From: Chrysiogenes arsenatis DSM 11915
GTDB lineage: Bacteria; Chrysiogenota; Chrysiogenetes; Chrysiogenales; Chrysiogenaceae
NCBI RefSeq assembly: GCF_000469585.1
Contig: NZ_AWNK01000007.1
Location: 147,348-211,347, forward strand
Direction: 5' to 3'
Length of the DNA stretch: 64,000 bases
In this document: positions 30,081-32,858 of the stretch, piece by piece
Layout: each line of letters opens with the position of its first letter
Position numbering within the stretch: position 1 is the first letter of the stretch
The notes under the pieces: generated by a model
Database searches by the model: none
Told to the model about the DNA's origin: nothing
What the model saw: the letters and a program-made list of their open reading frames with translations, nothing else
Translations under genes and position numbers: made by a program

Positions 30081-30239
30081 CGAGAAAGTAGCGTGTTTGT
30101 CAGTTGTTGGTGGCGCGAAAGGTAAATCTCTTTTTCGTGGTATTTCTTCGAGTCCATTTCTTGACCAACACTTGATTCGCCATTATAGTATATTCCTGAA
30201 AAACAGGCGGTGACGCTGCACCATAGACAGGAGTATTTG

Positions 30240-31169
30240 ATGGCCAGTATGCAAAACCAAGATGATATTGATGCTCTCCTCGCCGGTTTCGACGCTGCCC
30301 CCTCACCTGCGGCTCCCGCTCCAACTCCAAAAGCTTCCCCTGCCGCGCCGCTTTCCAATGACGATATTGATATTGATGCGCTTATGGCAGAAGCTGGTGC
30401 TCCAGCAGTTGCGGTCGCGGTCGCCGCTGAAGAGGCTGATGACGAGGAATTTGACATAGATGCTGCGGTGGCAGCGCGTGATGCCGCCAGCGAATCAAAA
30501 GATTTTCCGGAAGAAAACAGCGTTCCAGCGGAAAATCTTTCAGGCGACATGGCGGAAATTCTTGCTCAGGAATCTGCTGGGGTGTCGTCTGCAGCCCCAT
30601 CTCGCTCGCGTAATGAAGAGGTCGAAGGTGAGCTATTAGGGGGCGTTCGTTTGCCGTCCGCCGACCATCGGATTATTGACCGTCTGGATGAGATTACCAG
30701 CGAAACCGAGCAAAAAACCAATGAGGTAATGGATAAGCTGGACGGCGGTATCGCCAAGCTAAATGAGATGATCGAGGAGATGGACTCCTTTTTTGCTCAA
30801 CTCCAGGCGCATGAACAAGTCGTAAACCGGTTGAGTGCGAAGTATCCGGAAAACCCTGTCGTAAAACTCCTTTTAGAGATTACGGGAAGCTTTGCCAGTA
30901 TCCAGAAAATCAAAGATATTGCGTACGAATGTCAGGATGAAATTTTTGTGGCAATGGATTTGCTACAGTTCCAGGATATATCGCGGCAGAAGATTGAAAA
31001 AGTCATTGCCGTGATACGCGCACTCAATAACTATCTCAACACCTGGTTCGGTACCGAGTCACAAAAATCCCGCGCGCGGGTTGCCCGCACGATGGGACGC
31101 GATGATGCCAACGCAACTGATACGCAAGATATCGAGTCGCTGATCGAGGGGTTTAGAGAAAAGGGGTAA
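30240..31169 (+). CDS. cheZ: CheZ-family protein phosphatase
   Basis: 309 residues. CheZ dephosphorylates CheY-P in chemotaxis. The long helical C-terminal half contains the family motif AMDLLQFQDISRQKIEKVI (about residues 237-255) with the Asp and Gln positions equivalent to the catalytic residues of E. coli CheZ, and a charged C-terminal end (IESLIEGFREKG) that may be the CheY-docking helix. The N-terminal ~130 residues are Ala/Pro/acidic and low-complexity, with two copies of a DDIDALL/DIDALM peptide like the CheY-P-binding tip of FliM. The ATG at 30240 follows AGGAG by 6 bp. The J-domain gene starts 1 bp after the stop. Confidence 0.8.
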   Translation: MASMQNQDDIDALLAGFDAAPSPAAPAPTPKASPAAPLSNDDIDIDALMAEAGAPAVAVAVAAEEADDEEFDIDAAVAARDAASESKDFPEENSVPAENLSGDMAEILAQESAGVSSAAPSRSRNEEVEGELLGGVRLPSADHRIIDRLDEITSETEQKTNEVMDKLDGGIAKLNEMIEEMDSFFAQLQAHEQVVNRLSAKYPENPVVKLLLEITGSFASIQKIKDIAYECQDEIFVAMDLLQFQDISRQKIEKVIAVIRALNNYLNTWFGTESQKSRARVARTMGRDDANATDTQDIESLIEGFREKG

Positions 31170-31170
31170 C

Positions 31171-31881
31171 ATGTTTACGTATGCTCGCGAAGCCAAGAGA
31201 CTGCTCGGGGTGGATCACACCAACACCTTGCCAGACATTAAGGCCGCTTTCAGGCAGTGCGTAAAAAAATATCATCCAGACGTTCTGGGCAATACGCCTG
31301 CGAGTGTCCGATATTTTCAGCAAATCAACCGAGTTCATGGCGAACTGATGAAGTACAAACAGTTGCATCCAGATACTGTTTGTGCGGATGCAGCAAGCGC
31401 GAAGAAGACCTCAAGCGCGAGTGCCTCCGCACATGGGCATACTCCACGGTATCAGACGAACACGCAGTCTACCGCAGGTCGCCCACGCTCAAAGCCGACA
31501 ACAGAGCAGTTGATTCTGCAAAAAGTGCAGAAAATCAAGCAAGGGACGTTTAAGGTTGATCCGCTCGTGGCACATATGAGCATCGAATCGCTGATCATGC
31601 GCTGCGAGTTTAGCGATAACTTTTATGTGAAGCGCGAAGCGATCAAAGCGTTAGTGACCAAGGGAACTGTGGAAGCGGTGCGCGGCATTGTTTACCTGCA
31701 AAATTCTCAGGATAAAGAGTCTAAAGAGATCATTGCGGATATTTTGGCAAAATCCGATAGCCGTTTTCGACGCATGGTTCACGATGATGATTTGCAAGTA
31801 AACCCTTTCTTTGCGTGGGTTGATAAGCTGGTTTCCGGTATTATTCGAGTATTTGACGGTTCCGTGCGTATCTCGTACTAA
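31171..31881 (+). CDS. J-domain (DnaJ-like) protein with C-terminal helical repeats
   Basis: 236 residues. Residues 1-65 form a J domain with the diagnostic HPD (KKYHPDVLG), which stimulates the ATPase of DnaK. Residues ~75-115 are a Ser/Ala/Thr-rich linker. Residues ~120-236 are helical and HEAT-like (VKREAIKALVTKGTVEAVRG). It lacks the Gly/Phe and zinc regions of true DnaJ, so it is a specialised class III co-chaperone. It is tightly packed between cheZ and rsmH. Client unknown. Confidence 0.8.
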   Translation: MFTYAREAKRLLGVDHTNTLPDIKAAFRQCVKKYHPDVLGNTPASVRYFQQINRVHGELMKYKQLHPDTVCADAASAKKTSSASASAHGHTPRYQTNTQSTAGRPRSKPTTEQLILQKVQKIKQGTFKVDPLVAHMSIESLIMRCEFSDNFYVKREAIKALVTKGTVEAVRGIVYLQNSQDKESKEIIADILAKSDSRFRRMVHDDDLQVNPFFAWVDKLVSGIIRVFDGSVRISY

Positions 31882-31898
31882 TTTTGGCAGGGGAGCCT

Positions 31899-32858
31899 GT
31901 GACGTTCCATCATGTAACGGTTTTACAACAAGAAGTTATTGAAGCACTTGCCCCTACGGATAGTGAGCCGTCGGGGCTTTTCGTCGATTGTACCTTTGGT
32001 GGCGGCGGCCATAGTCGCGCGCTCCTTGAGCGGCTACCGCAGGCGGCTGTTATTGGGATTGATCGCGATCCTGCCGCATTAGCCGCCGCTTCAGAACGGC
32101 TTGCCGGATTCAATTTTCGTGCGGTGCGGGGGAATTTTCTCGATCTGAATCAACTCCTCCAGTCGCTCTCTATCACCCCTGCTTCTGTGAATGGATTCAT
32201 CTATGATCTCGGTGTCTCTTCGCATCAGATTGATACTGCCGAACGGGGTTTTTCTTTTTTGCACGATGGGCCGCTGGATATGCGGATGGATCCCGATCAC
32301 CCTTGCTCGGCGGCTGATATTATTGCCGAAGCTGATGAAGCAGAACTCACGCGTATTTTCCGCGAATATGGCGAAGAGCGGCACAGTCTTTTGGCGGCGC
32401 GCAAGATTGTTGAAGAGCGGCAAAAGCAGCCGATAGAAACGACCGCTGCGCTTGCTGGGCTCATCGAACGCGTGATCGGGCGCTGGTATCGTAATGAGAA
32501 AATTCACCCTGCCACTCGGATATTTCAGGCGCTACGCATTGCTGTCAATGGCGAGTTGGATGCGTTGGAGCGTTCATTGCTCGACGCTATTGATTGGTTG
32601 GCACCTGGTGGACGTTTGGCGGTTATCACCTTTCATTCGCTGGAAGACCGCATCGTGAAGCACCTTTTCCGGCGTGAAGCCGCTACCTGCGTGTGCCCGC
32701 CGGAAATGCCACGCTGTATGTGTCAACATCAGCCGCCAATCCGCATCATTACCCGCCGCCCGATCATCGCCACGGATGAAGAAATAAGCCGTAATAGCCG
32801 TTCGCGAAGTGCGAAGTTACGGGTAGTAGAGAAACTCCCTCAAGCTATGCTACAGTGA
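31899..32858 (+). CDS. rsmH: 16S rRNA (cytosine1402-N4)-methyltransferase RsmH
   Basis: 319 residues. The SAM-binding motif FVDCTFGGGGHSRALL lies near residues 27-42, followed by GIDRDPAAL, YDLGVSSHQID and, towards the end, HSLEDRIVKHLF. It methylates C1402 in the decoding centre. The frame is open to a TTG at 31884, but the GTG at 31899 gives the usual N-terminus (TFHHVTVLQQEV) and follows AGGGGAG. In most bacteria mraZ precedes it; here a J-domain gene does. Confidence 0.93.
   Translation: MTFHHVTVLQQEVIEALAPTDSEPSGLFVDCTFGGGGHSRALLERLPQAAVIGIDRDPAALAAASERLAGFNFRAVRGNFLDLNQLLQSLSITPASVNGFIYDLGVSSHQIDTAERGFSFLHDGPLDMRMDPDHPCSAADIIAEADEAELTRIFREYGEERHSLLAARKIVEERQKQPIETTAALAGLIERVIGRWYRNEKIHPATRIFQALRIAVNGELDALERSLLDAIDWLAPGGRLAVITFHSLEDRIVKHLFRREAATCVCPPEMPRCMCQHQPPIRIITRRPIIATDEEISRNSRSRSAKLRVVEKLPQAMLQ

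Follow-up and report, generated by a model that had tools for sequence, protein, structure and literature searches.

The C-terminus of CheZ is the part of this CheY-P phosphatase that binds CheY, as established for the Escherichia coli protein, and it uses the same site on CheY as FliM. Canonical CheZs (E. coli type, PF04344) have the catalytic D-x3-Q motif and the C-terminal CheY-binding peptide in common with the CheZ described here and, in the examples compared, differ from it in having no FliM-like peptide at the N-terminus. A near-identical peptide forms the CheY-P-binding tip close to the N-terminus of FliM (SQEEIDALL in the FliM of the same organism), although FliM is a switch protein of the C-ring and no CheZ phosphatase. 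CheY-P has been described, in passages of PMC9126983, to bind a conserved EIDALL motif in both FliM and FliY; in FliM the motif belongs to the first helix and sits in a groove of the CheY helices α4/α5. FliY is likewise described as a member of a CheY-P phosphatase family with a FliM-like EIDALL N-terminus; its CheC-family fold differs from that of CheZ, and the FliY proteins of Campylobacter and Helicobacter are said to be devoid of phosphatase active sites.

The closest relatives of our protein are the CheZs of Campylobacterota (NF041271; the "remote CheZ" of Helicobacter pylori), with which it shares the core, the D-x3-Q motif, a C-terminal DxxxLI-type peptide and an N-terminal FliM-like peptide of nine residues (9-mer). 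The pertinent passages of a 2024 mBio paper (PMC11237671) describe the N-terminus of the H. pylori protein as a region whose function is unknown. The same passages relate that in earlier work deletion of this region did not affect the phosphatase function and that deletion of the C-terminus did; the paper's own N-terminal deletions (residues 1-39 in its strain table) left the role of CheZ in biofilms unaffected. The polar localisation of H. pylori CheZ is stated to depend on ChePep (PMC7750401; PMC11237671), a protein that the sources describe from Campylobacterota only.

In this work we have analyzed a CheZ gene of Chrysiogenes arsenatis DSM 11915 with FliM-like peptides in its N-terminal arm, and surveyed the peptides among CheZs of the same type.

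A second CheZ gene in Chrysiogenes arsenatis

The gene is located in a stretch of 64,000 nucleotides, referred to as the window, of a genome of 2,825,161 bases in 22 contigs. Its features and those of its neighbours are as follows (window coordinates).

30161..30189, plus strand: promoter-like sigma-70 hexamers TTGACC-17-TATAGT (consensus match only)
30229..30233, plus strand: Shine-Dalgarno-like AGGAG, read from the sequence, 6 nt before ATG 30240
30240..31169, plus strand: gene of a predicted CheZ-type CheY-P phosphatase, 309 aa and stop (NF041271 and Pfam CheZ matches)
30240..30662, plus strand: N-terminal acidic/Ala-Pro arm, residues 1-141 (low pLDDT, with modelled helices)
30255..30281, plus strand: FliM-like peptide 1, NQDDIDALL, residues 6-14 (score 32; counterpart in 3/3 genomes of the family)
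30360..30386, plus strand: FliM-like peptide 2, DDIDIDALM, residues 41-49 (score 19)
30444..30470, plus strand: weak third copy, EEFDIDAAV, residues 69-77 (score 15)
30663..31049, plus strand: core with a helical hairpin (helices 142-201 and 218-270 of the AlphaFold2 model)
30975..30989, plus strand: catalytic motif D246-x3-Q250 (FQDISRQ), by direct reading
31119..31145, plus strand: C-terminal CheY-binding-type peptide DTQDIESLI, residues 294-302 (aligns with the C-terminal peptide of L020)
31171..31881, plus strand: DnaJ-domain protein, conserved downstream neighbour (Pfam DnaJ 3.6e-10; same order in G001 and G002, by eye)
31884..32858, plus strand: rsmH (mraW), conserved second neighbour (Pfam Methyltransf_5 7.3e-117)

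Direct reading places the 309-aa CheZ-type protein at 30240-31166 (+), with the stop codon running through 31169. The mechanical open reading frame opens at GTG 30210; translation probably begins at ATG 30240, with AGGAG lying six bases upstream of it. Three pairs of sigma-70-like hexamers occur in the region, against a mean of 1.9 in shuffled sequence. The protein matches the NF041271 (Phos_CheZ) profile with E 2.1e-27 over positions 70-240 of 242. Its 96.2 bits are below the curated cut-off of 350, a value passed by just 20 of the 200 Campylobacterota genomes searched too, and the match to Pfam CheZ (27.5 bits, E 3.4e-6) is slightly below the cut-off of 30.7. The product is a CheZ of the Campylobacterota type. 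It is distinguished from the Campylobacterota proteins by its score (96 bits against the cut-off), by a long Ala/Pro-rich arm with a second copy of the peptide, and by the presence of a canonical CheZ in the same genome; its identity with L020, a CheZ from an Arcobacteraceae-like genome, is 30% in a two-sequence alignment.

The domain layout follows a two-sequence AlphaFold2 model, which with a mean pLDDT of 58.9 is weak and serves as a sketch only. The arm contains modelled helices at residues 4-17, 45-50, 73-83 and 97-113; the core block has pLDDT 69-87 across residues 141-260 and 63 for 261-270, and a C-terminal helix is modelled at 295-308, with other short helices besides. The two long helices of the core would correspond to the hairpin from which CheZ phosphatases build a four-helix bundle as dimers. 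D246 and Q250 fall inside the second long helix (218-270), and a catalytic motif of D-x3-Q type is present in 145/145 homologues. DTQDIESLI is the predicted C-terminal CheY-binding peptide. A Foldseek search with this low-confidence monomer model gave generic long-helix proteins and no CheZ among the matches listed (50 of 445), none of which reached E 0.001. Sequence searches of the PDB returned two chains at E ≤10 for the whole protein and three for its first 54 residues, none related to CheY, FliM or CheZ, in a library of chains of at least 20 residues, from which short peptides of FliM or CheZ are necessarily absent.

The sequence-only reading of this stretch had proposed a CheZ with two FliM-like peptides on a flexible acidic/Ala-Pro arm. 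The open reading frame, its coordinates and both N-terminal peptides are confirmed by direct reading and the character of the arm is borne out, while the C-terminal DTQDIESLI had been overlooked.

A canonical short CheZ (L003) is encoded elsewhere in the host genome, adjoining CheY and CheA in a stretch that also holds genes for FliM and a FliY-like protein, which makes the cheZ of the window a second one. The canonical cluster (L113:3245-9647, minus strand, G000:C4) comprises FliM (SQEEIDALL), a FliY-like protein (SQEEINAML), an Hsp70/DnaK-like protein, CheY, canonical CheZ and CheA; the genes were named by eye, and the FliM/FliY and CheW domains come from domain searches. An Hsp70-like gene stands between the switch genes and the CheY gene in 3/3 Chrysiogenaceae genomes, as judged by eye. 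There are ten CheW-domain matches in the host genome. An 867-aa CheW-CheZ fusion is encoded at L116:5058-7667 (minus strand, G000:C3; also L002), with an N-terminal CheW domain (134.6 bits), a long acidic middle part and a CheZ-like C-terminus (E 8.8e-5) that ends in IDALLREMGLD; a 582-aa frame in G030 (L014) was judged by eye to be of similar make-up.

Among 40 relatives searched, the two other Chrysiogenaceae match the window CheZ over nearly its full length, and matches outside the family are parts of the canonical CheZ core, save for the CheW-CheZ fusion L014. The order cheZ, DnaJ-domain gene, rsmH is common to 3/3 Chrysiogenaceae genomes and the upstream side varies. No recognisable chemotaxis gene was found among the open reading frames adjoining this cheZ.

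Conservation of the N-terminal FliM-like peptide

Every 9-mer of each arm was scored with BLOSUM62 against the FliM consensus SQEEIDALL. The consensus was derived from the N-termini of 27 FliM proteins encoded in these genomes (28 rows less one CheA) with a filter that demands an S-Q/P-type N-terminus; each of the 24 Campylobacterota FliM loci fetched yielded a row. On this scale, on which E. coli CheZ has 28 for its CheY-binding C-terminal peptide, peptides 1 and 2 of the window CheZ reach the scores listed above (32 and 19) and bear out the resemblance to the FliM tip that had been noticed from the sequence alone. The window CheZ also has the pattern S/T/N-Q-D/E-D/E-I/L-D-A-L-L/M near its N-terminus. 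In the remaining two Chrysiogenaceae peptide 2 corresponds to DDIDVDALL (20) and to DYDDIESLM (16). In the alignment the third copy, EEFDIDAAV, has no counterpart in either of them, and it is possibly an accident of composition. The string DDEEFDID, identical in the window protein and L020, was excluded as evidence since L020 had been fetched with patterns containing it.

It might be supposed that such peptides arise generally in this way, acidic arms rich in Ala and Leu yielding DIDALL by chance, or that the N-terminus is conserved for translation. The window arm by itself beats shuffling only moderately, with at least one match of ≥22 in 2.0% of shuffles, which leaves some room for such an origin, and two matches of ≥18 in 0.6%.

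The peptide was compared across 145 CheZs of the Campylobacterota/Chrysiogenaceae type: three from Chrysiogenaceae (3/3 genomes), 90 Campylobacterota loci and 52 loci of Arcobacteraceae-like genomes, "Arcobacteraceae" being an inferred name for the family of L020. The 90 loci (30 best-scoring and 60 hand-picked) come from a draw of 200 genomes, 173 of which had a match, and the 52, L020 included, from 61 genomes drawn from that family; 55 of these gave a match, and the three of the 55 that were left aside have weak matches only. L088 and L167, truncated at contig ends, were dropped, leaving 143 usable proteins (3 + 89 + 51).

A 9-mer scoring ≥24 is present in 143/143 usable arms, against a total of 1.21 in shuffled arms and four in reversed arms. 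First-order Markov arms gave 0.07 expected matches of ≥24 against three observed in Chrysiogenaceae, 2.6 against 89 in the other Campylobacterota and 2.27 against 86 in the Arcobacteraceae-like set. With the first ATG in a frame taken as the protein start, the best match starts at residues 2-9 in 3/3, 89/89 and 51/51 arms of the three sets, a place in the chain comparable to that of the peptide of FliM itself (residue 6). The commonest forms are TQEELDALM (58/89 other Campylobacterota) and SQEEIEALM (29/51 Arcobacteraceae-like); all 89/89 CheZs of the former set, in which the H. pylori reference strain is not singled out by name, carry the peptide.

A degenerate DNA pattern for MTQEELDxLM/L matched in 132/200 Campylobacterota genomes, more than once in a single genome only, and the same pattern reversed as a control gave zero matches in these 200 genomes. 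The places compared by eye (e.g. in G042, G148 and G229) are the first codons of CheZ matches. Synonymous codons differ among the pattern matches, which speaks against the supposed accident as well. We regard the N-terminal peptide as real because of its occurrence in 143/143 arms where 1.21 were expected, and this is the decisive evidence. The same count rules out chance and composition as a general account, and we consider that account, translation included, extremely improbable.

The two Campylobacterota sets have mean pairwise identities of 0.91 and 0.92 in the 9-mer and of 0.20 and 0.23 in the remainder of the arm. The core stands at 0.56 and 0.58, the linker at 0.63 and 0.50, and the last 14 residues of the chain at 0.71 and 0.60. 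In Campylobacterota the 9-mer is thus more conserved than the mean of every other segment compared; the values are segment means, so individual core columns may equal it, and gaps were scored as mismatches, which depresses the values for arms differing in length. The three Chrysiogenaceae sequences give 0.78 for the 9-mer, 0.24 for the rest of the arm, 0.72 for the core, 0.58 for the linker and 0.67 for the C-terminal 14 residues, the 9-mer being just slightly above the core.

The canonical control comprised 13 CheZ loci, L003, L018 and L019 of Chrysiogenaceae and ten from other members of the window's phylum, with L014 kept out as a CheW fusion. The N-termini of the 13 lack a FliM-like peptide, their best scores being 8-17, and a C-terminal peptide of DQxLVDxLL type is present in every one. 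E. coli CheZ reaches just 8 with the best 9-mer of its first 70 residues. Judged against these canonical proteins, the N-terminal peptide characterises the Campylobacterota/Chrysiogenaceae type and not CheZ in general. Lack of conservation outside this one protein had been named beforehand as evidence that would count against the peptides, and on that point the proposal survived; it had itself overlooked that the peptide is spread through every usable CheZ of the type.

Copy number of the peptide along the arm

The Arcobacteraceae-like arms have a median length of 158 residues, and 38 of the 51 hold internal copies past residue 22 that score ≥20. These copies number 66, against 4.2 in shuffled, 12 in reversed and 6.8 in first-order Markov arms, and their excess over all three controls is a further argument against compositional accident. 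Counted over the whole arm at a threshold of ≥18, one copy is present in 4 arms, two in 14, three in 19, four in 11 and five in 3; at ≥20 the corresponding numbers are 13, 17, 15, 5 and 1. The other Campylobacterota have essentially a single N-terminal copy, with four internal matches of ≥20 in 89 arms (0.37 in shuffles, 0.61 in Markov arms). The Chrysiogenaceae have two, the second weaker, with two internal matches of ≥18 against 0.19 in shuffles and 0.63 in Markov arms.

At the loose threshold of 14 the C-terminal copy is found in 3/3 Chrysiogenaceae, 89/89 other Campylobacterota and 39/51 Arcobacteraceae-like proteins, several of the last having C-termini of the form DDLxxLI. The score is an imperfect guide to binding, since the accepted C-terminal peptide reaches 14 in just these 39 of 51.

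In L236 and other Arcobacteraceae-like arms, units such as TDIDELLNS or FDDILAGIDGI recur nearly in tandem, which suggests a recent duplication of the putative docking unit. Four short CheZ paralogues were hand-chosen from the Arcobacteraceae-like matches. L239, L240 and L241, with 152-171 aa far below their full-size relatives, keep the N-terminal MTQ-E/D-ELDALM, the catalytic motif and the C-terminal peptide; the fourth, L238 (129 aa), is without the N-terminal peptide.

Proposed docking of CheY-P and alternative roles of the peptide

Its sequence groups the N-terminal peptide with those of FliM and of the CheZ C-terminus, and we think it probable that the N-terminal peptides act as additional docking sites for CheY-P. 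By sequence the protein is a CheZ with the predicted catalytic residues D246 and Q250, and its C-terminal peptide would serve as the primary dock by analogy with E. coli CheZ. The N-terminal peptide, an "xxDIDALL" helix of the kind found in FliM and at the CheZ C-terminus, would be the candidate second dock. The long flexible arm may hold further CheY-P molecules near the CheZ dimer, which would raise the local substrate concentration and add cooperativity, and the peptide may compete with FliM for the shared surface of CheY. In the Arcobacteraceae-like proteins the arm has expanded into an array with as many as five copies.

Several observations count against docking. Peptide 2 of the window CheZ is weaker and internal copies in Chrysiogenaceae are few, no chemotaxis gene is recognisable among the neighbours of the window cheZ, and the 9-mer identity of the three Chrysiogenaceae is barely above that of the core. 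When the N-terminal region is removed from H. pylori CheZ, both the phosphatase function and the biofilm role are reported, in the passages cited above, to persist. It follows from the retained phosphatase function that a docking role of the arm should be accessory, namely capture, cooperativity or competition with FliM. Of the original interpretation, the resemblance, the arm and the conservation thus stand, and the proposal that the peptides recruit CheY-P to its own phosphatase holds at most in an accessory sense.

The same deletion would be accounted for if the peptides mimicked the switch or buffered CheY-P, binding it without feeding the active site and keeping it from FliM, so that the motor signal would be damped or delayed. 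Such a sink would also fit the match of the peptide to the FliM N-terminal tip at a comparable position in the chain and the multiplication of copies in Arcobacteraceae-like genomes. It is, however, hard to tell a sink from docking when the sink leads to a phosphatase bearing a C-terminal dock of its own, and we hold a switch mimic or buffer to be unlikely.

The N-terminal helix could instead have a binding partner different from CheY, be it a factor for polar or motor localisation, some further chemotaxis protein or CheZ itself, its likeness to FliM coming merely from both being short acidic amphipathic helices. The description of the region's function as unknown (in the passages of PMC11237671) and the reported ChePep-dependence of CheZ polar localisation in H. 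pylori (PMC7750401; PMC11237671) are in line with such a partner. Yet Chrysiogenaceae keep the peptide, ChePep having been described, as far as the sources tell, from Campylobacterota only, and these proteins carry a similar peptide at their C-terminus; a non-CheY partner therefore seems to us quite improbable.

Returning to docking, the kind of interaction in question is already familiar. No description of an N-terminal FliM-like peptide in CheZ was found in the open-licence papers searched, which is a weak negative. The docking design that CheZ would share with FliY seems to have had a separate origin in each. We propose more tentatively, with belief and doubt nearly balanced and doubt somewhat the greater, that CheZs of the Campylobacterota/Chrysiogenaceae type carry CheY-P docks at both ends and that the multivalent array of the Arcobacteraceae-like proteins is a tunable CheY-P trap competing with the switch.

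The conserved FliM-like 9-mer gives the N-terminal region a testable identity, that of a second CheY-P dock, and if this is true the N-terminal region of H. pylori CheZ would gain a specific job. CheZ and the motor would then be in direct competition by means of the same peptide chemistry, in a manner resembling FliY, and the natural series of one to five copies may offer a view of the effects of multivalency on the speed and sensitivity of the chemotactic response.
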